Shown here piece after piece: positions 4,485 through 15,729 of a DNA stretch of 64,000 nucleotides. The notes under the pieces are model-generated. The model saw only the letters and a list, made by a program, of their open reading frames with translations. It did no database searches and was not told where the DNA came from. Origin of the DNA: Sulfitobacter indolifex (GTDB lineage: Bacteria > Pseudomonadota > Alphaproteobacteria > Rhodobacterales > Rhodobacteraceae); the NCBI RefSeq assembly GCF_022788655.1, contig NZ_CP084951.1, positions 1,612,001 through 1,676,000 of the forward strand, in the 5' to 3' direction. The translations under genes and the position numbers were made by a program. Within the stretch, counting starts at the first letter, position 1, and each line of letters starts with the position of its first letter.

Positions 4485-4561
4485 GGGCCTGTAGCTCAAT
4501 TGGTTAGAGCAGAGCGCTCATAACGCTTTGGTTGCGGGTTCAAGTCCTGCCGGGCCTACCA
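4485..4561 (+). tRNA. tRNA with CAU anticodon (tRNA-Ile2 or elongator tRNA-Met)
   Basis: A complete 77-nt cloverleaf with encoded CCA. The acceptor stem GGGCCTG pairs with CGGGCCT using two G-U pairs. The D-loop is GCTCAATTGGTTAGAGC. The anticodon loop is CTCATAA in a GAGCG/CGCTT stem. The T-arm is GCGGG TTCAAGT CCTGC. The acceptor starts with a G-U pair, so it is not initiator tRNA by the usual 1:72 mismatch with GGG/CCC anticodon-stem signature. The TGGTT variable loop resembles that of minor isoleucine tRNA (lysidine at C34, read as AUA) more than elongator Met, but I cannot settle this by eye. It sits between purM (divergent) and the sulfonate cluster (convergent). Confidence 0.93.
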
Positions 4562-4679
4562 TGTTTTCAAAGACTTGTCTGGAACCGCCACAAGCTGACT
4601 GGGGTCAGTGCGGCCCTTCTGCTGACTGTAACCGTGCAGAATCGCATCACATTTTTAGCAGCATCAGTTACACCGCCGT

Positions 4680-5666
4680 CTAAATCCCAATCATCAGAAC
4701 AAAGACAAGCGCTGCACAGAGCAGGAACAACGTCTCAACAATCAAAATAATACTATAGCTGGGTTTCACCTTCACAATCCGTGCCAGACTGGTTTTTACC
4801 CCCAAGGCCGCAATCGCGATGACCAAGCACCAACGCGATACCTCGTTCAGCAATGCGAGCACGGGCGCGGGCACCACCCCCAGATTTGCCAGAACCGCAC
4901 AGCCTGCGAACATCACCAGAAACCACGGAACGCCGACCGACTGCTGCTGCGCGCCTCTGAAGCTGAACATCACGACCAGCATCACCACCGGAAGCAGCGC
5001 GACACGCAAGATTTTGACGTAGGTGGCAAAAACGCCTGCTTCTTCACTGATCGAGTACCCAGCCCCTACCACCTGCGCGACATCGTGAATCGTCGCGCCG
5101 ACCAGAAAACCACTTTCGATATTGCTCAGGCCCAGCGATTGGAAAAGAATGGGATAGACGATCATCGCGATCGTCGACAACGCAGTGACGCCGATCACCA
5201 CAAAAAGCGTGTCTTGCTCGCGGTCCTTATGCGGCGGCAATACCGAAGTGATCGCGAGGGCCGCCGATGCACCGCAGATCGCGACTGACCCGCCTGCCAG
5301 CATGCCAAAGGCCGTGCGGCGGCCAAAGAGGCGAGACATCACCACCCCGCAGCCAAATGTTGCCAGAACGAAACCGATGATGGCAATGACAGGCGTAAGC
5401 CCAAGGCTCATGACCTCTGCCAACCCCAACCGCAGCCCCAGCAGCCCGACCCCGAAGCGCAGCAGCGCCTTCGCGGCAAAGTCGATTCCCACGGCGCAGG
5501 CGCCATCTTCCGACAGGAAATGAAATGCCATGCCGAGCAGCAACGCAAACAGCATGACCGGCGCACCATAGTGGTCAGACAGGAAGGTGGCGGCCACCGC
5601 GATCACACTCGCAAGCAGCAACCCCCCGGCATAGGGGGAGATGCGGGATTTGGCAGTCAGTAGCAT
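4680..5666 (-). CDS. YeiH/UPF0324 family putative sulfate or sulfite exporter
   Basis: A 328-residue polytopic inner-membrane protein with about ten hydrophobic segments and the conserved family stretches LRFGVGLLGLRL, GGSVAICGASAALAI, GATIHDVAQVVGAG and ALGVKTSL. The UPF0324/YeiH family has been proposed to export sulfate or sulfite, largely from gene context in bacteria that break down organosulfonates. Here it is the last gene of a minus-strand cluster, 25 bp after the HpsN-like gene and downstream of a cysteate sulfo-lyase. That position supports export of sulfite or sulfate released by C-S cleavage. The substrate is inference. It ends against the convergent tRNA gene. Confidence 0.88.
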   Translation of the reverse strand: MLLTAKSRISPYAGGLLLASVIAVAATFLSDHYGAPVMLFALLLGMAFHFLSEDGACAVGIDFAAKALLRFGVGLLGLRLGLAEVMSLGLTPVIAIIGFVLATFGCGVVMSRLFGRRTAFGMLAGGSVAICGASAALAITSVLPPHKDREQDTLFVVIGVTALSTIAMIVYPILFQSLGLSNIESGFLVGATIHDVAQVVGAGYSISEEAGVFATYVKILRVALLPVVMLVVMFSFRGAQQQSVGVPWFLVMFAGCAVLANLGVVPAPVLALLNEVSRWCLVIAIAALGVKTSLARIVKVKPSYSIILIVETLFLLCAALVFVLMIGI

Positions 5667-5691
5667 TATTTTTCCTAAGCGCGGCTTGGGG

Positions 5692-6969
5692 TCAGGCCGG
5701 TTGGTGTTTCAGCCGAAGTTCGGCAGAACGGGCATGGCCTTCCATCCCCTCCATCCGGCTGATGCGCGCGGTGCGCAGGGCCAGTTCATGCGAGGCATCC
5801 GCGTTACAGCGTTGCCACGTTACGGTCTTGGTAAATTTATGGACGGAGAGGCCACCGGTATAGCGCGCCGCCCCACTAGTGGGCAGCACATGGTTCGGGC
5901 CAGAGGTCTTGTCGCCGAAGGCAACGGTTGTCTCTTGCCCCAGAAACAATGATCCATACGCCGAGAGGCGGTTGAGCCACCAATCAAGGTCTTCGGCCTG
6001 AACCTGAAGATGTTCTGGTGCGTAGCGGTCGGCCACTTGGGCCGCCTCTTCGCGGGTGTCGCACAAGACCACCTCGGCGCGCTCTGTCCAAGCCACGCGC
6101 GCGGCACTGGCGTTTGGTTCCGGCAGGCTGCCGATCATTTCGGGCGCCCGCTGCAAAACGGCTTGTGCCAGTTTCCGGTCGGTTGTGACCAGCCAAACCG
6201 GGCTGTCGGCCCCGTGCTCCGCCTGACTGACCAAGTCCCATGTCACCGTTTCAGGGTCTGCGCTGTGGTCCGCGACCACGAGTGAATCGGTCGGACCTGC
6301 AAACATGTCGATCCCCACGGCACCGAACAGCATGCGCTTGGCCTCTGCCACATAGCTGTTGCCGGGGCCGACGAGGATATCGGCAGGCGTCCCGCCAAAC
6401 AGCCCCATCGACATGGCCGCCACCCCCTGCACCCCGCCGAGATTGAGGATCAGGTCTGCCCCGCACAGGTCCATCGCAAAGACAATCGGGTCGGGAATAC
6501 CAATGCCGGGACGCGTGGGCGAGCACGCGGTAATATGTGGCACGCCCGCGACCTTGGCGGTGGTGATCGTCATCAAAGCACTGGCGATATGGCTATAGCG
6601 TCCGCCGGGCACATAGCAGCCCGCGCTGGATATGGGGATTTGTTTCTGCCCCGCAATCAGCCCCGGCATGACCTCGATTTCGCAATCGGCCATCGTCGCT
6701 TTCTGCGCTTCGGCAAATCGACGGATATTGGCATGGGCGAAACGGATATCGTCCTTCAGGTTTTGCGGCACCCGCGCACAGGCGGCGGCCCGTTCCGCTT
6801 CAGACATCGCGATATCCCCGGTCCAGCCATCAAGGTCGCGCGCGTAGTCCCGAACGGCTGCTTCGCCGCCCTCTTCGATCTTGGCAAGCATCTGTGCAAC
6901 AACGCCGCGGATGTCGTTGCCCTCAACCGCAGGGCGCGTCTCGACTTGCTTCAGATACGTGATCGCCAT
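5692..6969 (-). CDS. HpsN-like dehydrogenase (histidinol dehydrogenase family), sulfonate substrate likely
   Basis: A 425-residue NAD-dependent, zinc-dependent alcohol dehydrogenase of the HisD family that takes a primary alcohol to a carboxylate in two steps. The HisD zinc ligands and catalytic residues map to Gln249, His252, Asp353, His412 and to Glu319-His320 in YAPEH. Sequence around the substrate site is HpsN-like, not HisD-like: GDK at 352-354 where HisD has GDY, and LSVHKFTKTVTWQ at 374-386 where HisD has LSVDDF. HpsN oxidises 2,3-dihydroxypropane-1-sulfonate to sulfolactate. The start ATG is 4 bp after the racemase stop. No his genes are nearby. Inferred substrates are DHPS or the amino analogue cysteinolate. 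Confidence 0.85.
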   Translation of the reverse strand: MAITYLKQVETRPAVEGNDIRGVVAQMLAKIEEGGEAAVRDYARDLDGWTGDIAMSEAERAAACARVPQNLKDDIRFAHANIRRFAEAQKATMADCEIEVMPGLIAGQKQIPISSAGCYVPGGRYSHIASALMTITTAKVAGVPHITACSPTRPGIGIPDPIVFAMDLCGADLILNLGGVQGVAAMSMGLFGGTPADILVGPGNSYVAEAKRMLFGAVGIDMFAGPTDSLVVADHSADPETVTWDLVSQAEHGADSPVWLVTTDRKLAQAVLQRAPEMIGSLPEPNASAARVAWTERAEVVLCDTREEAAQVADRYAPEHLQVQAEDLDWWLNRLSAYGSLFLGQETTVAFGDKTSGPNHVLPTSGAARYTGGLSVHKFTKTVTWQRCNADASHELALRTARISRMEGMEGHARSAELRLKHQPA

Positions 6970-6973
6970 GGGC

Positions 6974-7675
6974 TTACCTCGGTTCGGTTTGGGAGTGCTG
7001 ATGGATCGCCTCGGCCAGTACGTCGATCGTGTCGAGGATAGGCACGGGGGCTGACAATGCTGGGGCCAGCAGCGAGAACTCCGAGCAGGCAATGAGCAGA
7101 AGTTCGGCCCCCTGTTCTGTTAATTCATCCGCCGCCTCTGAGAGCGTCTGCTGCGCCTGCGGGGTGATGCCCTGCGCCTTGATCAACCGGATTGCGGCCA
7201 ACATGCGATCGGCATCGGCGGGCCAAAGGGATTTCAGCCCTGCGCGGTCGAGGGCTGCGTCAAACACCCCGGCCATACGCACGGCGGGAGAGGCAAGAAT
7301 GCCGACGGAAGCGCCCGAGCGAAGTTGCCCCGCCGCGCGGTCGACCGATAGGGTCACCATGTTCAAGAATGGGATTGAAACCGCCGCCTCAATCGCTGGC
7401 GCGTAGTGATGCGCGGTGTTGCAGGGCATGGCGAGGGCCGTGGCCCCTGCCCGTTCCAGCCGCTGTGCCATCGCAGCTAGCGTGGCGGTGGGGTCTTCCC
7501 CGGTCCCGTCGATCAGATGCGCGATGCGCGACGGCACCTGAGGGTTCATGTCGATCAAAAGTGGCAGGTGATCGGCGTCGTCTTGGGCATCGACTGTCGC
7601 AAGCACACGCTGTTGCAACAGGATCGTCGCTTCCGGTCCCATGCCCCCCAATACGCCGACAACTGGGCGGCTCAT
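6974..7675 (-). CDS. aspartate/glutamate racemase family protein
   Basis: A 233-residue cofactor-independent racemase of the Asp/Glu family. It starts VGVLGGMGPEAT, the usual N-terminus, and has both catalytic cysteines: Cys85 in MPCNTAHH and Cys197 in IACSEFSL. The intact pair argues for a real racemase rather than a one-cysteine decarboxylase relative. The ORF runs open to 7870, but the ATG at 7675 overlaps the stop of the aminotransferase gene by four bases (ATGA), fixing the start by coupling and by the family N-terminus. In this cluster it could interconvert D- and L-cysteate, a structural analogue of aspartate; that assignment is inference. Confidence 0.87.
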   Translation of the reverse strand: MSRPVVGVLGGMGPEATILLQQRVLATVDAQDDADHLPLLIDMNPQVPSRIAHLIDGTGEDPTATLAAMAQRLERAGATALAMPCNTAHHYAPAIEAAVSIPFLNMVTLSVDRAAGQLRSGASVGILASPAVRMAGVFDAALDRAGLKSLWPADADRMLAAIRLIKAQGITPQAQQTLSEAADELTEQGAELLLIACSEFSLLAPALSAPVPILDTIDVLAEAIHQHSQTEPR

Positions 7676-8874
7676 GATGCCACCTCGCCCACGGCTTCGC
7701 AGATCAACTCGGCGATCAGCGCGCAGTCGTCTTCCGAAAAACTCAGCGGCAGGCGCATGTCGAAAAGCGTCGCCATGATGCGGTCTGTCGCGGGCATGTT
7801 TTGCGCTGGAACATAGCGCCAAGACGGATGCGCCGAGGTGAAGCCTGCCGGCTCTTTCGCGCCGAACCATTTAAGCTCCACGCCCCGCGCGGCAGCAGCC
7901 TCCAGCACGGCGCGGCACTGCCCGGCGGTAAAGCCCGGCAGGCGGAACTGGATGGAGGACCCGACGTGTGCTTCGGCGGAGGGTAGCTTGATTGTCGCCA
8001 CGCCGTCCTGTGCTTCCAGCCTATTTTCCACCAGCGCATAGCGCGCATTCCAGCGGGCGATGTTGGTGTCGAGGGCTGCAAGCTGCGGACGCAGGATCGC
8101 CGCGCGCAATGCGTCCATCCGGGCCGAGCAATTGGGCATGTCATAGCGCGCATCGGCATAGGCCTCAGGCTCCGGCCCGGCACCGTGGCGCTCATACAGC
8201 ATGTAACTGCCTGACAGGATCGTGGCGCGGGCGGCGATTGCGGCGGCGTCGGTGGTCAGAAACCCGCCTTCGCCGGAATTCATGTGTTTGTAGGTCTGGG
8301 TCGAGAAACAGGCCACCTTGCCAAAATTACCCGACCGACGACCTTTCCACCGCGCGCCCATCGTATGGGCGCAATCCTCGATCACGGTCACCTGCGCCGC
8401 ATCGCAGATCGCCATCAGCCGCTCCATATCGCAAAGATGCCCGCGCATATGCGAAAGCAAAAGCACCCGCGCCCCGGAACTGGCGATTTTGGCGTCTAGG
8501 TCATCAAGGTCGAGCCTTAGGTTTTCGTCGATCTCGACCAGCACCGCCTCAGCGCCCACCGCCCGGATCGCGCCGGGCACCGGGGCCAGCGTATAGGCAT
8601 TGGTCAGCACCTTGTCGCCCGGCGCCACATCGCAGGCGCGCAGGGCTATTTGCAACGCCTGCCCGCCCGAGGTGACGGCAAGGCAGAATTTGCTGCCCTG
8701 CCAATCACGGTATTCAGCCTCAAGCTGGGCCACCTCCCCAACCTCACCCGGTGCGAGGTTATACCGGTGCAAACGCCCCGATTGCAGGACCGCAACCGCG
8801 GCTGCGATTGCGTCTGCGGAAAGACCCTCTTGCTGGGTGAAATTGCCGGTAAACTTGCGCGCCACGGAAGCCAT
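7672..8874 (-). CDS. DegT/DnrJ/EryC1/StrS family PLP-dependent aminotransferase
   Basis: A 400-residue PLP enzyme with the DegT fold. The PLP-binding Asp167 is in IEDCAH and the Schiff-base lysine is Lys196 in TQTYKHMNSGEGG. The N-terminal part has SGGQALQIALRA and GDKVLTNAYT. Most members aminate keto-sugars, but some act on small oxo acids or aldehydes. No sugar or polysaccharide genes are nearby; it sits 6 bp after the cysteate sulfo-lyase gene and overlaps the racemase gene. It may interconvert sulfopyruvate and cysteate, or remove the amine from an aminosulfonate. Family call firm, substrate unknown. Confidence 0.87.
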   Translation of the reverse strand: MASVARKFTGNFTQQEGLSADAIAAAVAVLQSGRLHRYNLAPGEVGEVAQLEAEYRDWQGSKFCLAVTSGGQALQIALRACDVAPGDKVLTNAYTLAPVPGAIRAVGAEAVLVEIDENLRLDLDDLDAKIASSGARVLLLSHMRGHLCDMERLMAICDAAQVTVIEDCAHTMGARWKGRRSGNFGKVACFSTQTYKHMNSGEGGFLTTDAAAIAARATILSGSYMLYERHGAGPEPEAYADARYDMPNCSARMDALRAAILRPQLAALDTNIARWNARYALVENRLEAQDGVATIKLPSAEAHVGSSIQFRLPGFTAGQCRAVLEAAAARGVELKWFGAKEPAGFTSAHPSWRYVPAQNMPATDRIMATLFDMRLPLSFSEDDCALIAELICEAVGEVAS

Positions 8875-8880
8875 CCTCTC

Positions 8881-9894
8881 TTATAGGTTGACCCAGCGAT
8901 TAGCGGTGTCAAAGGCGAAGTCATAGCCGCCAAGCGCCGCCGCCCCGCCGGTGTGCAAAAAGACCACCCGCTCGTCCTTGAACTTGCCTTTGCGGGCAAG
9001 ATCAATCAGACCAGCAGCCCCCTTGGCGGAATAGCAAGGATCAAGCAGGATGCCTTCAAGCTCGGCAAACATCTGGATCGCCTCGATACCACTGTCGGTG
9101 GGGATGCCATAGCCGTCACCCACATAATCAGTGTTGGCCATCACATCTTCGCGTTTGACCACGCCCGCGCAGCCCAGCTTCTCGGCGGTTTTGCAGGCAA
9201 GGTCATAGACCATCTGTTCCTGTTTGGGCTGTGGCGCACGGGTGCCGATGCCGAGAATGGGGATCTGGGCGTTCATCGCACACATGCCCGTGACAAGCCC
9301 TGCCTGCGTGCCCGAAGACCCGGTGCCGTGGACCAGCCGGTCGATCTTCATGCCCGACGTGTTCACTTGGTTCAGCAGCTCAAACGCACAGTTCACATAG
9401 CCCAAAGCACCCGTGGGGTTGGAGCCGCCGCCGGGGATGACATAGACCTTATGTCCTTCAGCCCGTTTCTGCTCTGCAGCCTTTTCCATCTCACCGGGCA
9501 TGTCGTGGCCGCCGGGGAATTTTTCGGTCGTGGCACCGTGGAGATGGTCCAGCAGCACATTGCCATTGGTGTTGTAGTTGGCGTCGTCATATCCGGTGCG
9601 GTCTTCCAACAGGATGTGGCAGGCAAGCCCTAGCTTGGCCGCCGCAGCAGCTGTCTGGCGGCCGTGGTTGGTTTGGGTGGCGCCTTGGGTCATCACCATG
9701 TCAGCGCCCTGCTCAATGGCCTCGGCCATCAGGAATTCCAACTTGCGGGTCTTGTTGCCGCCGGTCGAAAGGCCGGTGCAATCGTCCCGCTTGATCCAAA
9801 TTTCAGTGCCAAGCTCTTTTGACAGGCGCTTCATATGCTCAAGCGGGGTTGGCAGATGGGCAAGGTGGACGCGGGGAAAACGGGAGAGGTGCAT
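8881..9894 (-). CDS. cuyA: L-cysteate sulfo-lyase-like PLP enzyme (CuyA type)
   Basis: A 337-residue fold-type II PLP enzyme of the ACC deaminase/D-cysteine desulfhydrase family. The PLP lysine is Lys48 in [11 protein letters not shown]. The segment [20 protein letters not shown], with QTNHGR where E. coli D-cysteine desulfhydrase has QSNHVR, is the form I associate with CuyA, which splits L-cysteate to pyruvate, sulfite and ammonium. IPGGGSN and [10 protein letters not shown] are family motifs. The start ATG follows AAGGAT at good spacing. It is the first of five packed genes ending in a putative sulfate/sulfite exporter, which favours cysteate over D-cysteine. D-cysteine desulfhydrase remains the main alternative. 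Confidence 0.85.
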
Positions 9895-9999
9895 GGGTGA
9901 TCCTTGTCGTAGATATTGGGTGTGCAGCGGAACACATTGTCGCTGGATGACCTTGGTGCGGGACGGGGGCCAGCTTTGGACCGGCCCCTGCCCATCATG

Positions 10000-12438
10000 T
10001 TATCCGCGCATTAGCGCATAGGAAGGATCATATGGCGAGGGGTCGATCACCTCGGTGCCGACCATTTCCCCATAGAGATCAAGCGGGATTTGCGTGCCGG
10101 GCGTGGCCAGCGCGGGGTCGACGAAGGCATAGGCAAGGTTCATGCCCACCCTGTGCCCCCAATCCCCCGAAGTCACGGTACCGACAACCTTGCCGTCTTG
10201 CATCAGGGAGGCACCGCCATGGGCCGGAGCGTGGGTGGCATCGACCTTAAGCGTCACCAGTTTCTTGCGCGGCCCTTCGGCCATGCGTTTGTGCAGCGCC
10301 GCTTTGCCGATGAAATTTGAGGGCTTTTCGGGTTTTACGAAACGGTCCAGCGCGGTTTCGAAGGGGTCAAATTCGGTCAGCAGTTCCGCTTTCCAGTGCA
10401 TGAAACCTTTTTCCAGTCGCATCGCGTCAACCGCCCGGGCACCGAACAGCTTCATCCCATGTGCCTCCCCAGCCTCTCGCAGGGCCAGATAGGCGGCATA
10501 GAGCGCATTGTTTGGTACGTGGATTTCATAGGCCAACTCGCCCGAAAAGCTCACGCTCAGCACCGTGGCGGGCGCAAAGCCGATGAAACATTCGCGCAGG
10601 CTGAGCCATGGGAAGGCCTCTTTCGACCAATCGCCGCGAGAACAGGCGCTGAGCACGTCGCGCGCTTTGGGTCCGGCGAGCACGAGGATCGTTTGGTCAT
10701 TGGTCAGGCTGCGGATCTGCACGTCTTCATCTTCGCGCAGATGCATCTGCAACCAGTCCATGTCATGATATTCGCTGGCGGCTGCCGAGCCGTACCAGAT
10801 ACGCTGCGGACCGCGATCTGAGTCGGGCAAATTGGCCACCGTGGCCTCGCCCTTGACCATCCCGTGGTGGTTCAGCAGGTAGCCCAATCCGACACGTCCA
10901 TCGCGCTTGGTCACGGCGCCGCAGAACATTCGATCGAGGAAACTGTGCCGGTCGCTGCCGGTGATTTCAAAGCGGTTGAAGCCGTTGACTTCGCACAGGC
11001 CGACATTCTCGGCCACGTTCTTCACCTCCGCCGCGACCACGTCAAAGGCTTCGTCGAAGTTGAAGCTTAGTGTCGGGTGGAAGTTCGGCGACGGCTTGAT
11101 GTAGTCGACCCGCTCCCAGCCGTTGACGACGGTGAATTCAGCCCCTTCGGCAGCCATCACCGGGGTCAGCGGCGTGGTCTTGGCGGGCCGCGCCGCGGGG
11201 CGATGCTCATGCGGGAAATGGAAGCGGAATTCGTTCTGGTAATCTTCGATGGCCTTGAGCGCTGTGAGTTCAACATTCGCATGGCCGGTGAAGCGGCGCG
11301 GGTCGATGACCCAGGTGTCATACTGCGCCTCGCCATGGACGATCTGCTGGGCCAGCAGCCAACCGTGCCCCCCGCCCTCGCCCAGACCTGCGCGCAGGCC
11401 AATGATACAAAAGGCGTTGCGCTTGCCGGGGATTGGGCCAACCAGCGGCGCGCCGTCGATGGTATAGGTGATGGGGCCGTTGACGATGGATCGGATGCCG
11501 GTCTCGGCCAGCGCGGGCATACGCTCAAAGGCACCTTCCAGCACGTCCATGACCCGCTCCAGATCGTCCGGGCAAAGGGCGTTGACGAAATTCGGGTCGA
11601 TCCCGTCCATCCCCCAAGTTTTGCAGTTCTGCTCATAAAAGCCGACCAGCAGACCGTTCTTTTCCTGTCGGCTGTAGTAGTCGGAAATAGGACAGCGTAG
11701 CAGTGGCATACGGTGACCGGCCTCAACAATCGCGGGAATGTCTTCGGTCAGAAAATACTGGTGCTCCATCGAGGCGACGGGGTGATGCACACCCATCATA
11801 CTGCCGACCTCATTCACCCGGTAGCCACAGGCGTTGACCACAATATCGCAGTCGATGTCGCCGTGTTTGGTGTGGACCGTCCATGTGTCGTCTTTGTGCT
11901 GCGTCAGAGCGGTGACCGGCGTATTGCGGTAGACCTCGGCCCCGGCTGTGCGCGCGTGATAGGCCAAAGCCTGACAAAGCTGCGCCGGGTCGATGTCCCC
12001 GTCGAGCGGATCCCAAAGCCCGCCCAGCAGGTTCTCGGTCGAGATCAGTGGGTGACGTCGGGCGCATTCCTCGGCGTCGATGACTTCCAGATCCACATCC
12101 ATGCCGCGCGCCATTGAGGCAAAATGGCGATAGCCCTGCATCTGCGCATCGGTGTTGGCGAGCCGGATTCCACCATCGGCGTGATGGTAGTTGATGGGAT
12201 ACTCAGGGTCTTCGGAAAGGCGTTTGTAAAGGTTGATCGAATGGGTCTTCAGCCCCACCATCGTCTGATTGGCCCCAAAATTCGTAACCTGCGCGGCGGA
12301 GTGCCACGTGGTGCCCGAGGTCAGCTCGTCCCGCTCAACAAGCACGACGTCGCTCCATCCTTCTTGAGTGAGGTGATAAAGTGTCGAGCAACCGGCAATG
12401 CCGCCGCCGATCACGACGACTTTGGTCCGAGATTTCAT
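10000..12438 (-). CDS. dimethylglycine/sarcosine dehydrogenase-like flavoprotein with GcvT domain
   Basis: An 812-residue fusion of an FAD-dependent DAO oxidoreductase (about residues 1-390, Rossmann VVIGGGIAGCSTLYHL) with a GcvT-type aminomethyltransferase half (about 440-810). His46 in SGTTWHSAA matches the histidine that binds FAD covalently in mammalian dimethylglycine dehydrogenase. The family demethylates N-methyl amines such as dimethylglycine and passes the methyl carbon to tetrahydrofolate as 5,10-methylene-THF. The start at 12438 (MKSRTK) precedes the FAD loop; the frame runs open to 12495. A LysR gene is just upstream on the same strand and purU, which recycles 10-formyl-THF, is close by. 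The exact substrate (dimethylglycine or sarcosine) is not decidable from sequence. Confidence 0.88.
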   Translation of the reverse strand: MKSRTKVVVIGGGIAGCSTLYHLTQEGWSDVVLVERDELTSGTTWHSAAQVTNFGANQTMVGLKTHSINLYKRLSEDPEYPINYHHADGGIRLANTDAQMQGYRHFASMARGMDVDLEVIDAEECARRHPLISTENLLGGLWDPLDGDIDPAQLCQALAYHARTAGAEVYRNTPVTALTQHKDDTWTVHTKHGDIDCDIVVNACGYRVNEVGSMMGVHHPVASMEHQYFLTEDIPAIVEAGHRMPLLRCPISDYYSRQEKNGLLVGFYEQNCKTWGMDGIDPNFVNALCPDDLERVMDVLEGAFERMPALAETGIRSIVNGPITYTIDGAPLVGPIPGKRNAFCIIGLRAGLGEGGGHGWLLAQQIVHGEAQYDTWVIDPRRFTGHANVELTALKAIEDYQNEFRFHFPHEHRPAARPAKTTPLTPVMAAEGAEFTVVNGWERVDYIKPSPNFHPTLSFNFDEAFDVVAAEVKNVAENVGLCEVNGFNRFEITGSDRHSFLDRMFCGAVTKRDGRVGLGYLLNHHGMVKGEATVANLPDSDRGPQRIWYGSAAASEYHDMDWLQMHLREDEDVQIRSLTNDQTILVLAGPKARDVLSACSRGDWSKEAFPWLSLRECFIGFAPATVLSVSFSGELAYEIHVPNNALYAAYLALREAGEAHGMKLFGARAVDAMRLEKGFMHWKAELLTEFDPFETALDRFVKPEKPSNFIGKAALHKRMAEGPRKKLVTLKVDATHAPAHGGASLMQDGKVVGTVTSGDWGHRVGMNLAYAFVDPALATPGTQIPLDLYGEMVGTEVIDPSPYDPSYALMRG

Positions 12439-12580
12439 GGTGGTGCCTCCGAAATATTCCGGGTTCAGAGGGGCAGACAGCGCTCGCAACAGCAAACGCT
12501 CAATCCAATATTCGAAAAAATCTTAAGATAGTTCCGATAGTTTGATCGCACTTAATGATACGGCGGTAGAAACCGAATTT

Positions 12581-13594
12581 CTACGCCAGGCCGATGGTCT
12601 CTCCAGCTTCGTTTTCCGAGGGCTCAAGCAGTCCAAAGCTATCGGCCAACCAAGGCTCGCTGGCATGCAGAGGTTCAATCGCGTGTTGCAGGATCAACGC
12701 GCGCACTTTGCTGTCGACCAGTTCGATGACAGAGCGCGAACAGTCGGGCGTTGTCATCAACGCGAGCCTGCGCGCAAAAGATTTCCCCGGGAAGCGGTGC
12801 ATCCGCAGATCGTTGTGGAACCGCTTGGCCCGGGAAAAAAGCAGCGGTGTGGTGATCGTCCAGCCCGCGTTTGCCGCGACCATTGCCATGAGCGTCTGGT
12901 TGTTGCTGCATTCAAACCGATGCGGTGACGACACCCCCAGCCGCCGCAATTGCGCATCGATCTGACGTGCAATCATCAGATTGCTGCAGAACCGTAGGAA
13001 GGGCAGTTTAGTCGTCCCCTCCATAATATCCGACAGCGACTGGGGCGCGAGCCGCGGCAGAACAACGATAAAGGGATCACGCAAAAGAGGGCGCTCTTGA
13101 AGATCGCTCATCGTTTCGCCCGGCGCGGTACATATGCCGAGGTCCAGTTGCCTGTTTCGCAGCATATTGATCAGATCGTGACTGACCCCTGTGTGATACA
13201 CAAAATCGCAATTCGGCATCACGCCTGAGAGGGAGACGGCGAGATGCGGCACGATATCGCTAACAAAATCCTCGATTGCGCCAATTCTTAGAAAACTGGC
13301 ATCGGCAACACTGCCTGCGGATGCTTCGGCCTTCGCCTTGCGGATCGTCCGCAGCGCCTCCTCAATCTGGCGGGAGAAGACTTGGCCTTTCGGCGTTAAA
13401 ACCATCGGGCGCCGCGCATGGTTGAACAGTTCAACGCCCAGGTGGTCTTCCAGACTGCGCAGATGGTGCGACACGGTGCTGACCGTCAGACCGGCCTCTC
13501 GCGCTGCAGCTTGAAGCGAACCTTCCTTGGCGCAGACCTGAAACAACTCGAGCGATTTCAGGCTGATATCTCTGGCGGATTTCGTGCGAGACAT
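12581..13594 (-). CDS. LysR family transcriptional regulator
   Basis: A 337-residue LysR-type regulator. The N-terminal winged helix-turn-helix (about residues 12-75) contains FQVCAKEGSLQAAAREAGLTVSTVSHH and a standard second half (LRSLEDHLGVELF). A substrate-binding-protein-like effector domain follows from about residue 95. It lies 142 bp upstream of the flavoprotein gene on the same strand and faces purU across a 604-bp gap. It is the only regulator in the 4.7-15 kb accessory region, so it may control the flavoprotein gene, the sulfonate cluster behind it, or both. The effector is unknown; a methylated amine or a sulfonate are both plausible. Confidence 0.92.
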   Translation of the reverse strand: MSRTKSARDISLKSLELFQVCAKEGSLQAAAREAGLTVSTVSHHLRSLEDHLGVELFNHARRPMVLTPKGQVFSRQIEEALRTIRKAKAEASAGSVADASFLRIGAIEDFVSDIVPHLAVSLSGVMPNCDFVYHTGVSHDLINMLRNRQLDLGICTAPGETMSDLQERPLLRDPFIVVLPRLAPQSLSDIMEGTTKLPFLRFCSNLMIARQIDAQLRRLGVSSPHRFECSNNQTLMAMVAANAGWTITTPLLFSRAKRFHNDLRMHRFPGKSFARRLALMTTPDCSRSVIELVDSKVRALILQHAIEPLHASEPWLADSFGLLEPSENEAGETIGLA

Positions 13595-14198
13595 GGCGGC
13601 CTCCTCAATTCAGCTGACACTGAGCTTACTAATCGCATCTAATCAAAGTATAAATATCAATTCTTCTGAGACGTCGTTTCCTCTTCTGTGGTTCACGCGG
13701 AAAGGTCTAAACCTCAATGCCAGATAAAAGCCAAATATGACACCAACGGGAGACTGCATGAGACATCTACGTTTGGCCTCCGCCAGCGGAATGGGTTTCG
13801 CGGGCACCGCCTATCCCGAAGACTGCAGTAAGGTCGGCATTAGACAGAGAGACTGAGCACTGCATCGATTAACGGACCTCGTTGAAGATAACTGCGGAAA
13901 ATGCGCGAGGATGACCAATGTCGGGGAAAGGTGATCCTAGCGTGTCGCGGGTTACCGGGCTGCTGGCTGCGATGCACGCGTTTGCAAGTGCCGCGCATGA
14001 TCAATCGACGTGTCACCACGGAGTATAATCAAGCCAAGGCGGCAAGGGCCGCTCAAGAATTGTCCGGCATCAAGTTCAAGATGATTGCTTGTCTCACGAA
14101 TGCATGTCTATTGCCCTACGCAGCCTGAGGTGCCCATACAGCCGGGTCAGACAACGTGGCTGTCGCGGCTGCACAACCCAATTTTCAAGGACCATCCG
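13595..14198. other. 604-bp intergenic region between LysR gene and purU
   Basis: No full-length gene is supported here. The first 110 bases are AT-rich and probably hold the LysR promoter and its operator. A 32-codon reading frame with a secretion-like start lies at 13758-13856. A near-perfect 9-bp inverted repeat (13908-13916 with 13930-13938) with a 13-nt loop lies further on. An open frame at 13901-14128 has no credible Shine-Dalgarno sequence and resembles nothing I know. I looked for a glycine riboswitch before purU and did not find its conserved cores. The stretch looks like partly decayed sequence. Confidence 0.6.
13758..13856 (+). pseudogene. possible 5' remnant of a secreted (solute-binding) protein gene
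   Basis: A 32-codon frame with GGGAG seven bases before the ATG. The start MRHLRLASASGMGFAGTAYPEDC looks like a signal peptide running into a mature N-terminus with a cysteine, as in glycine betaine ABC-transporter binding proteins, whose start often reads like KRLTLA...ALADC. It then stops, and no in-frame or shifted continuation is visible. Context with a dimethylglycine-dehydrogenase-like gene and purU suits a lost betaine-type transporter, but the match is only a short, low-information segment. It could equally be a leader peptide or chance. Confidence 0.3.
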
Positions 14199-15083
14199 AT
14201 GACCAAGTTTTGCCTGACCGTTACCTGTCCCTCTCGACGCGGGATCGTTGCCGCAATCGCAAAATATATCGCTGAGAACGGCTGCAATATTACCGACAGC
14301 GCGCAGTTTGATGATGCCGACAACGGTCAGTTTTTCATGCGGGTGAGCGCGGAGGCTGAGACAGGCAATACGCTTGAAGATCTGCGTGCAGGGTTCGCCG
14401 AAATCGCTGAGCCCTTTGGCATGGACTATAAGTTCCACGACACGGACAGCACGATGAAGGTCGTGGTTATGGTGTCGCGCTTCGGCCATTGCCTGAACGA
14501 TCTTCTCTACCGCGTGCGCATTGGCGCGCTTCCGATCGAGATCGTGGCTGTGATCTCTAATCACATGGATTATCAGAAGGTTGTGGTGAACCATGACATC
14601 CCCTTTCACCACATCAAGGTGACTAAGGAGAACAAATCCGAGGCAGAAGCACGGATCATGGAGGTGGTCGAGGATGCTGGCGCTGAACTGATCGTACTGG
14701 CCCGCTATATGCAGATCCTATCTGATGCGATGTGCCAAAAGATGAGCGGTCGGATCATCAATATTCACCATTCCTTTCTTCCGTCGTTCAAAGGCGCGAA
14801 CCCGTATAAGCAGGCGTATGAGCGCGGCGTAAAGCTGATCGGCGCGACCTCTCATTATGTAACTGCCGATCTCGACGAAGGACCGATCATTGAGCAAGAC
14901 ATCGTTCGCATTACCCACGCGCAAAGCGCCTCGGACTACGTGTCTCTTGGCCGGGATGTTGAATCGGGCGTACTGTCACGGGCGATCCATGCCCATGCGC
15001 ATCACCGGGTCTTTTTGAACGGCAATAAGACAGTCGTGTTCCCCGCATCACCCGGCAGCTATAGCTCAAAGCGCATGGGGTAA
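14199..15083 (+). CDS. purU: formyltetrahydrofolate deformylase
   Basis: PurU hydrolyses 10-formyl-THF to formate and THF. The 294-residue product has an N-terminal ACT domain (about residues 5-85, starting LTVTCPSRRGIVAAIAKYI) and a C-terminal formyltransferase-like hydrolase domain with VSRFGHCLNDLLYR, NIHHSFLPSFKGA and the catalytic DLDEGPIIEQD. The frame is open back to 14085, but the ATG at 14199 has AAGGA eight bases upstream and gives the family N-terminus. Beside a dimethylglycine-dehydrogenase-like gene it most likely frees THF during methyl-group oxidation, a recurring arrangement in Rhodobacterales, rather than feeding formate to purine synthesis. Confidence 0.95.
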   Translation: MTKFCLTVTCPSRRGIVAAIAKYIAENGCNITDSAQFDDADNGQFFMRVSAEAETGNTLEDLRAGFAEIAEPFGMDYKFHDTDSTMKVVVMVSRFGHCLNDLLYRVRIGALPIEIVAVISNHMDYQKVVVNHDIPFHHIKVTKENKSEAEARIMEVVEDAGAELIVLARYMQILSDAMCQKMSGRIINIHHSFLPSFKGANPYKQAYERGVKLIGATSHYVTADLDEGPIIEQDIVRITHAQSASDYVSLGRDVESGVLSRAIHAHAHHRVFLNGNKTVVFPASPGSYSSKRMG

Positions 15084-15279
15084 CGGGGATCTCAAAAGGG
15101 GTGGTCTGGGCCTAGTCTTCCGAATGACTGATCGCGGGTAGCCGTGAATGACTTGCTTAGACCGACACAGAACATCAGCTGTGAAGGGCGCCTGCCGCGG
15201 TTGTCGCTGTTCAGGCGCCCACCTGCTGACTGAACTGGGCTGCCGGCCATAGAAAAACCAGTGTCCCACCTGCTCCCCT

Positions 15280-15729
15280 TTAGCGTTTTGCGCTGACGTG
15301 CCAGTTCATCATCATCTCAACCACCGTCTCGCCCGCCTCGTTGCGGATGTCGACAGTTACGTCAAAGGCGACCTTACCGTCCTCTTGCAGGGCCGATAGC
15401 AGTTCAGCGCCGGGGCGTGAGGTTTTGGCGTGGGCGGTCAGCGTGCCCTCTGCGATCTTTTTGAACGCGATCTGCCCCATGGCTGCAACGGGCCGCATGT
15501 CCATGATGACCGGCGCGATGGCCCCGGCCATGGCCGCCCCTGACGCCGCCTCGCCCAATGTAAACATCGCGCCTGCATGCTGGGTGCCGATGTGGTTGGA
15601 GGTTTCATGCCGCTGCACCAATTCAGCGCTGGCTGTCCCGTCGCCAAGCTCTAGCAGTTTCACCCCAACATGACCCGCAAAGGGCACGGCTGAATCGAGA
15701 TGGGCTTTGATCATGTCATAGGGGGTCAT
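15280..15729 (-). CDS. hotdog-fold thioesterase-like protein (PaaI/DUF4442 type)
   Basis: A 149-residue single hotdog domain. Conserved features include HIGTQHAGAMFTLGEAASGAAM around the long hotdog helix and the C-terminal strands ending NWHVSAKR. Such proteins hydrolyse acyl-CoA or related thioesters in the cytosol, usually as tetramers; the substrate is unknown. The start ATG at 15729 begins the family-like N-terminus (MTPYDMIKAHLDSAVPFAGHVG). It follows the sensor kinase gene on the same strand by about 70 bp, but no functional link is evident. The 196 bp between this gene and purU hold nothing I can identify. Confidence 0.82.
   Translation of the reverse strand: MTPYDMIKAHLDSAVPFAGHVGVKLLELGDGTASAELVQRHETSNHIGTQHAGAMFTLGEAASGAAMAGAIAPVIMDMRPVAAMGQIAFKKIAEGTLTAHAKTSRPGAELLSALQEDGKVAFDVTVDIRNEAGETVVEMMMNWHVSAKR

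Follow-up and report, generated by a model that had tools for sequence, protein, structure and literature searches.

A 64,000-nucleotide stretch of the Sulfitobacter indolifex contig NZ_CP084951.1 (positions 1,612,001 to 1,676,000, forward strand), referred to here as the window, carries a compact set of five genes for sulfonate metabolism, and the question was which compound they serve to break down. An earlier note, made from the letters of the window, had described five minus-strand open reading frames (ORFs) separated by at most 25 bp or overlapping by 4 bp, and the coordinates bear out this order and spacing. The cuyA gene (8881..9894) lies 6 bp from a degT gene (7672..8874), whose stop codon overlaps the ATG of a racemase gene (6974..7675) by 4 bp (common ATGA); gaps of 4 bp and 25 bp then separate the racemase gene from an hpsN-like gene (5692..6969) and the latter from a YeiH-type gene (4680..5666). 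Genes of the same inserted block for a LysR regulator, for a flavin adenine dinucleotide (FAD) oxidoreductase fused to a GcvT domain (FAD/GcvT) and for PurU were omitted from that list. In related genomes, cuyA, cuyB and hpsN form a recurrent core to which degT is an optional addition, and the cluster is probably a catabolic unit for cysteinolate (2-amino-3-hydroxypropanesulfonate).

Identification of CuyA and CuyB

The CuyA protein scored 523.5 bits against the NCBIfam equivalog NF052482, D-cysteate sulfo-lyase (cut-off, 450), and the racemase scored 284.3 bits against NF052483, cysteate racemase (cut-off, 190). Because the latter cut-off was passed, the more specific name of cysteate racemase (CuyB) can replace that of Asp/Glu racemase. 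Both of its catalytic cysteines, already pointed out in the earlier note, were found, in the motifs MPCNTAHH and IACSEFS. The assignment of CuyA to its family held, and its substrate is probably the D-form rather than L-cysteate: older annotation treats CuyA as an L-cysteate sulfo-lyase (PMC4334477), whereas a preference for D-cysteate, supplied by CuyB from L-cysteate, has been reported (PMC11382572). Together with the two model matches, this reverses the proposal that the racemase supplies the L-form, and the most likely role of CuyB is to provide CuyA with D-cysteate. It had also been argued that the racemase would be left unexplained if the pathway began with 2,3-dihydroxypropane-1-sulfonate (DHPS). 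The racemase does not discriminate between the routes, because the one leading from DHPS through sulfopyruvate to L-cysteate requires CuyB equally.

Recurrence of cuyA, cuyB and hpsN

CuyB was detected in 59 of 295 genomes of the family, with 61 matches. The surroundings of 56 matches were examined (G102, G281, G224, G166 and the second match in G047 were left out); for the partial cuyB of G241 (L120), neighbours were counted across the whole 18-kb locus. CuyA was present at 49 of the 56 loci, hpsN within 8 kb at 32, and both at 30, while DegT occurred at 13, 10 with hpsN and 3 without. Pairing of cuyB with hpsN at 32 loci is not chance, the rough estimate of the number expected being approximately 0.2. 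The core was arranged as hpsN-cuyA-cuyB, cuyA-cuyB-hpsN or cuyA-degT-cuyB-tauABC-hpsN. A search for conserved co-occurrence, as suggested in the earlier note, was thus positive for cuyA-cuyB-hpsN; joint conservation of all five families did not extend to DegT, missing from 22 of the 32 cuyB+hpsN clusters. No hpsO or hpsP with at least 50% identity was found within 8 kb in any of these 32 clusters.

Importer genes of the TauABC type were located by 10 of the 56 cuyB loci and those of the choline/betaine type by 4, and the binding protein of L014 passed the taurine cut-off. DHPS operons have a tripartite ATP-independent periplasmic (TRAP) transporter instead, as indicated by profile matches and PMC4334477. 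TauABC-type importers inside related clusters fit an aminosulfonate substrate. They also bear on the idea that the genes make cysteinolate for the sulfur-containing aminolipids of roseobacters, in which cysteinolic acid is the head group (PMC11631085). Such a biosynthetic unit is scarcely credible: a lyase that removes the sulfonate group, together with its supplying racemase and an exporter, points to breakdown, and these importers and the presence of CuyB in only 59 of the 295 genomes also speak against synthesis.

The HpsN-like dehydrogenase and two kinds of hpsN

The dehydrogenase had been described as an HpsN-like member of the HisD family, and it is one: it matches PF00815, contains GRYSH, and is closer to solved HpsN structures than to HisD. 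The closest chains were 8wwe (565 bits), which is the R-DHPS dehydrogenase of Ruegeria pomeroyi (RpHpsN; PMC11131964), and 8v35 (501 bits), the HpsN of Cupriavidus (CpHpsN); the best HisD chain gave 242 bits. The protein also passed the general hisD model TIGR00069 (424.3 bits; cut-off, 243.8), which does not separate HpsN from HisD, and hisD labels in public records would come from HpsN-like proteins passing it. In the plasmid records opened, genes of such clusters are called hisD and D-cysteine desulfhydrase, masking the pathway. The HisD motif G-S-A-P-L is not present in the protein; in its place is GRYSH at residues 123-127 (window numbering, as for all residues below), agreeing with the sulfonate motif G-R-Y-A/S-H. 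The zinc, catalytic and sulfonate-site residues Gln249, His252, Glu319, His320, Asp353, Lys354, His360 and His412 are kept. HpsN is single-copy in the genome of S. indolifex; a second HisD-family protein, 37% identical to it, is presumably the true HisD.

In HpsN, both the sulfonate and the 2-substituent of the substrate are bound to zinc (PMC11382572). CpHpsN is inhibited by L-cysteate with a half-maximal inhibitory concentration (IC50) of 2.4 mM, and its crystal complex with L-cysteate was reported to be essentially identical to that with R-sulfolactate (PMC11382572). The HpsN site therefore tolerates an amino group where DHPS has a hydroxyl group.

A search with the window HpsN gave matches at E ≤ 1e-110 in 192 of the 295 genomes, a count that includes near-threshold matches, probably more distant HisD-family proteins. 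Two kinds of hpsN were seen: one in the order hpsR, hpsKLM, hpsN, hpsO, hpsP, and the other beside cuyA and/or cuyB. The comparisons of HpsN sequence and gene context used 86 HpsN rows, which were not sampled at random: they comprised best hits, second copies and the copies at cuyB loci, and also rows from 11 of 18 loci selected among 80 of 585 confirmed loci. The tree had 85 rows, HisD, L208, L197 and L039 having been dropped as long branches and two reference enzymes added. One clade with support of 100/100 contained 27 DHPS-context (hpsO/P-linked) copies, RpHpsN and 4 copies of other context. None of the 38 cuy-linked rows fell inside this 32-row roseobacter DHPS clade, and the window HpsN also lies outside it. 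Genome G193 has three separate loci, namely a DHPS operon of the hps type (L156), a simple cuyA-cuyB operon (L191) and cuyA-degT-cuyB-hpsN (L117), which fits three different substrates; a DHPS-type hpsN at another place was likewise found in G286 and G141.

Within the DHPS clade, the hpsN copies of L167 and L169 have as neighbours conserved genes for proteins of 828/822 and 348 aa (c84 and c85) in place of hpsO/hpsP; the genomes concerned, G082 and G197, also have a DHPS-type locus.

Sulfolactate genes and the DHPS route

The cluster could instead degrade DHPS, in which case the HpsN-like enzyme would convert R-DHPS to R-sulfolactate, an unlinked dehydrogenase would form sulfopyruvate, and DegT would yield L-cysteate for CuyB and CuyA. 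Among solved structures, the HpsN-like enzyme is nearest to DHPS dehydrogenases and shares their active-site residues, and the genome of S. indolifex carries an Ldh_2 protein. PMC11382572 assigns genomes with hpsNOP and cuyA to this route, with CuyA among the hpsN neighbours (n = 34), and calls the R. pomeroyi aminotransferase and racemase genes unknown. We nevertheless regard it as rather unlikely, because all 32 clusters are without hpsO/hpsP and 22 are without DegT, because separate DHPS-type hpsN genes exist elsewhere in G193, G286 and G141, and because of the distribution of sulfolactate genes.

At 28 DHPS-context hpsN loci, SuyA was found 10 times, SuyB 10, ComD 11, ComE 10 and SlcD 10, whereas each of them was absent from all 40 cuy-context hpsN loci. 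The names SlcD, ComDE and SuyBA were given from gene order, from a table of R. pomeroyi genes in PMC4334477 and from Pfam matches, of which the protein of SuyA size had none. Genome-wide checks for Ldh_2 and SlcD covered 26 near-complete genomes of the 32 with cuyB and hpsN (G021, G022, G033, G078, G096 and G109 were left out). No Ldh_2 (ComC-family) protein was found in 11 of the 26. An SlcD orthologue of at least 60% identity was found in three (G193, G141 and G105); in the rest, only FMN-dehydrogenase (flavin mononucleotide) matches were seen, none above 46%. The 11 genomes without Ldh_2 also had no SlcD orthologue, SlcC, the (S)-sulfolactate dehydrogenase, being outside the search. Placement of ComC in the Ldh_2 family is supported by a match of NF040650 on an Ldh_2 protein. 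As a marker of ComC, Ldh_2 was set aside except where it is absent (11 of 26 genomes), the copy of S. indolifex being ambiguous.

No SlcD orthologue (best match, 42%) and no HpsP or HpsM orthologue (best HpsP-like match, 33%, partial; best HpsM-like match, 33%) was found in the S. indolifex genome, which has one Xsc above the cut-off. HpsO, HpsP and HpsKLM are not in the window cluster, HpsO having been looked for at the cluster only, not genome-wide. The earlier claim that a sulfolactate dehydrogenase is absent is true of the clusters, as judged from SlcD at the 40 cuy-context loci, and may not hold for the genome, which keeps the ambiguous Ldh_2 protein.

Proposed degradation of cysteinolate

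HisD converts histidinol to histidine and HpsN converts R-DHPS to R-sulfolactate; an oxidation that gives cysteate directly starts from the alcohol cysteinolate. By analogy with these two enzymes, we infer that the HpsN-like zinc/nicotinamide adenine dinucleotide (NAD) enzyme would oxidize the primary alcohol of cysteinolate to cysteate in two steps. CuyB would then turn L-cysteate into D-cysteate, which CuyA would cleave to pyruvate, ammonia and sulfite; the YeiH-type protein would export the sulfite, and the LysR protein would regulate the cluster. This first reaction had been put forward in the earlier note, and it gains support from comparative genomics, the substrate being deduced. A direct step from cysteinolate to cysteate explains why the cuyA-cuyB-hpsN core recurs mostly without DegT, sulfolactate dehydrogenase or hpsO/hpsP. 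By the Cahn-Ingold-Prelog rules, L-cysteate and (R)-cysteinolate share the spatial arrangement of R-DHPS. An HpsN-like stereospecificity would accordingly give L-cysteate for conversion by CuyB to the D-form, and the racemase obtains a place in the pathway.

Several points weigh against this assignment. The residues checked are alike in 28 DHPS-type and 40 cuy-linked rows except for Y125F, S126T and Q249K (one each, all in cuy-linked rows; at position 126 either group may have S or A), so that DHPS as substrate is compatible with sequence alone. Since only these three single exceptions set the groups apart, the active-site comparison was dropped as a discriminator between DHPS and cysteinolate; the clade-specific positions 49, 143, 166, 337 and 382 (28 DHPS rows compared with 41 selected others) do not coincide with any catalytic residue that the papers name. 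The hpsO-linked L137 and the DHPS-active CpHpsN also fall outside the roseobacter DHPS clade, and for this reason the cuy-linked HpsN proteins, separate as they are, do not make up a single lineage and claims based only on the tree are weakened. At 24 of the 56 cuyB loci hpsN is missing, and non-DHPS hpsN genes adjoin a divergent LysR gene without cuyA/cuyB at L136, L139, L162 and L164; G031, G200 and G073 gave no cuyB match at E ≤ 1e-40. The window cluster has no importer gene. If CuyA used L-cysteate too, as in the older annotation (PMC4334477), CuyB would not be strictly required. The best NCBIfam match of the S. indolifex Ldh_2 protein is L-sulfolactate dehydrogenase (155 bits; cut-off, 500), which leaves a possible way from DHPS to sulfopyruvate in that genome, and the 11 genomes without Ldh_2 possibly have a sulfolactate dehydrogenase of another kind. 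CpHpsN showed no activity on the tested substrates that lack a sulfonate group, and cysteinolate is not mentioned in that paper (PMC11382572); natural cysteinolate is called L in some and D in other titles cited by PMC8703288; and a roseobacter on algal extract did not raise its own cysteinolic acid, with nothing clear on breakdown (PMC9695272).

Another reading is a promiscuous unit, in which the dehydrogenase would take both R-DHPS and cysteinolate and DegT would interconvert cysteinolate and 2-oxo-3-hydroxypropanesulfonate. The two substrates are near-isosteric and meet the same catalytic residues, and DegT enzymes usually aminate hydroxyketones. Histidinol is a weak substrate of RpHpsN, and algae that produce DHPS were found to contain the keto compound (PMC11131964). 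With DegT frequently missing and some of these genomes carrying a DHPS operon at another place, such a mixed unit seems improbable, and degradation of cysteinolate is the reading followed below.

Accessory genes

The DegT protein (7672..8874, minus strand) matched PF01041 with 199.3 bits (cut-off, 19.8), and no NCBIfam model was above its cut-off among the matches listed. The lysine in its motif TYKHMNSGEGG is taken by us to be the pyridoxal phosphate lysine of the family. As 2-oxo-3-hydroxypropanesulfonate is a hydroxyketone, the kind of compound this family aminates, a role of DegT on the keto form of cysteinolate is our guess; most likely it would be an accessory enzyme bringing this 2-keto form or the other enantiomer to cysteinolate. 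DegT was initially considered a key to the pathway and was demoted to accessory, being absent from most clusters and having a large non-cuy clade.

That clade makes up 46 of 98 DegT rows and has no CuyA/CuyB matches (at least 45% identity) within 8 kb. Its members, from marine roseobacters and kin (e.g., L028, L049 and L074), are approximately 60% identical to the window DegT, and at the loci inspected they lie with genes read from Pfam domains as glmS, glmU and gph on one side and an acyl-CoA dehydrogenase gene on the other. They occur in lineages known for cysteinolic-acid lipids and are candidates for a cysteinolate-forming transaminase for those lipids.

The exporter (4680..5666, minus strand) was confirmed as YeiH-type at the Pfam level (PF03601, 207.4 bits; cut-off, 24.5) and fell short of TIGR00698 (113.9 bits; cut-off, 232.6); sulfite is its presumed cargo. 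Upstream of cuyA, on the same strand, are the FAD/GcvT gene (10000..12438), whose product has the domains DAO, FAO_M, GCV_T and GCV_T_C, and the lysR gene (12581..13594; PF00126 and PF03466), presumed to regulate the cluster. Relatives of this LysR adjoin many non-DHPS hpsN genes, and FAD/GcvT copies 85-89% identical to that of the window stand beside the clusters L004, L118, L120 and L222. The FAD/GcvT protein is a possible N-demethylase and, most likely as an accessory, would bring N-methylated forms to cysteinolate.

A wider proposal is that the complete set of genes serves to break down cysteinolate bearing N-methyl groups, the betaine included. An MttB-family methyltransferase, encoded in related clusters, and FAD/GcvT would transfer the methyl groups to folate, PurU would recycle the folate, DegT would join cysteinolate to its keto form and thereby to DHPS, and a new dehydrogenase lineage would make cysteate for CuyB and CuyA. 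MttB/FAD-GcvT pairs are neighbours of hpsN or cuy genes in L004, L039, L147, L201, L205 and L222, choline/betaine-type importers occur in L131, L039 and L147, and purU is inside the inserted block. The proposal is nonetheless doubtful: the sole MttB-like match in the S. indolifex genome is 26% identical, FAD/GcvT was found within 8 kb of only 5 and MttB of only 2 of the 56 cuyB loci, and the MttB/FAD-GcvT pair of Ruegeria L227 adjoins carnitine-type genes and so may be a general betaine module.

Locus L147 (G004) combines the MttB/FAD-GcvT pair and a choline/betaine-type ATP-binding cassette (ABC) transporter with a DHPS-clade hpsN and hpsO, no hpsP or TRAP genes being detected. It may be an operon of an unusual kind for DHPS or for an N-methyl sulfonate.

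Genomic setting of the cluster

The cluster is part of a block of approximately 10.7 kb (~4563-15280) that begins right after the 3' end of a tRNA-Met (CAT) gene (4485..4561, plus strand; ARAGORN). The block contains the YeiH-type gene, hpsN, cuyB, degT, cuyA, the FAD/GcvT gene, lysR and purU (14199..15083, plus strand), the last encoding a formyltetrahydrofolate deformylase above the cut-offs of NF004684 and TIGR00655. In the congener G055, the genes for AIR (aminoimidazole ribonucleotide) synthase (purM-like), tRNA-Met and a DUF4442 protein are adjacent, the alignment with the window ends after the tRNA-Met CCAT, and no copy of purU is found at the corresponding site. In G080, the purM-like gene and tRNA-Met adjoin a histidine-kinase-like gene (window 15799), without the block. 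Families of the flanking genes were assigned by Pfam domains. Since both genomes have the flanks without the block, it is most simply read as a gain relative to the congener, beside tRNA-Met. Just one 10-base match was found as a candidate attachment (att) repeat at the block ends, and no integrase was recognised among the proteins of the block (window ORFs and profile matches).

Similar clusters, identified by matching to the window proteins, reside on plasmids. That of Leisingera methylohalidivorans (L222) has lysR, mttB, FAD/GcvT, a further regulator, cuyA, degT, cuyB, hpsN and the exporter gene, and that of Ruegeria sp. SCSIO 43209 has cuyA, cuyB and hpsN. Plasmids of Ancylobacter pratisalsi and Shinella sumterensis (L224 and L225; Hyphomicrobiales) carry cuyA, degT, cuyB, tauABC and hpsN, with the exporter gene in Shinella. 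The occurrence of the cuyA-degT-cuyB-tauABC-hpsN operon on Hyphomicrobiales plasmids also indicates that it probably moves between families. One of these two plasmids has genes for type IV secretion and for a relaxase.

Comparison with known systems

Cysteinolic acid occurs widely among microalgae, whose cells can hold more of it than of dimethylsulfoniopropionate (DMSP) (PMC8703288). No bacterial gene or enzyme degrading cysteinolate was found in the published literature searched; outside that literature, the 2024 paper cited for CuyB and a 2022 review on cysteinolic acid may hold an earlier proposal. If the proposed pathway is true, hpsN genes beside cuyA/cuyB, labelled hisD in the records opened or counted as DHPS genes, mark the use of cysteinolate, and the reading of DHPS versus cysteinolate fluxes from ocean hpsN transcripts would change.

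Like the window cluster, the hpsRKLMNOP DHPS operon (R. pomeroyi SPO0590-0598) has an HpsN, a Zn/NAD alcohol-to-carboxylate dehydrogenase acting on a C3 sulfonate. It differs in having a TRAP importer and HpsO/HpsP, and often in relatives SlcD/ComDE or SuyAB, none of which is in the window cluster, and its HpsN belongs to a clade outside which the window HpsN lies. With the cuy operon for cysteate (in R. pomeroyi cuyR-cuyA-cuyZ, elsewhere plain cuyA-cuyB) the window cluster shares CuyA and a presumed sulfite exporter, and CuyB with the plain cuyA-cuyB form; it has in addition the chemically upstream HpsN-like dehydrogenase, DegT and the FAD/GcvT gene. HisD histidinol dehydrogenase has the same fold family and a like reaction type, amino alcohol to amino acid, whereas the window protein has GRYSH. 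The FAD/GcvT protein has the DAO-FAO_M-GCV_T-GCV_T_C order of the dimethylglycine/sarcosine dehydrogenase kind, and differs in standing in an aminosulfonate cluster.

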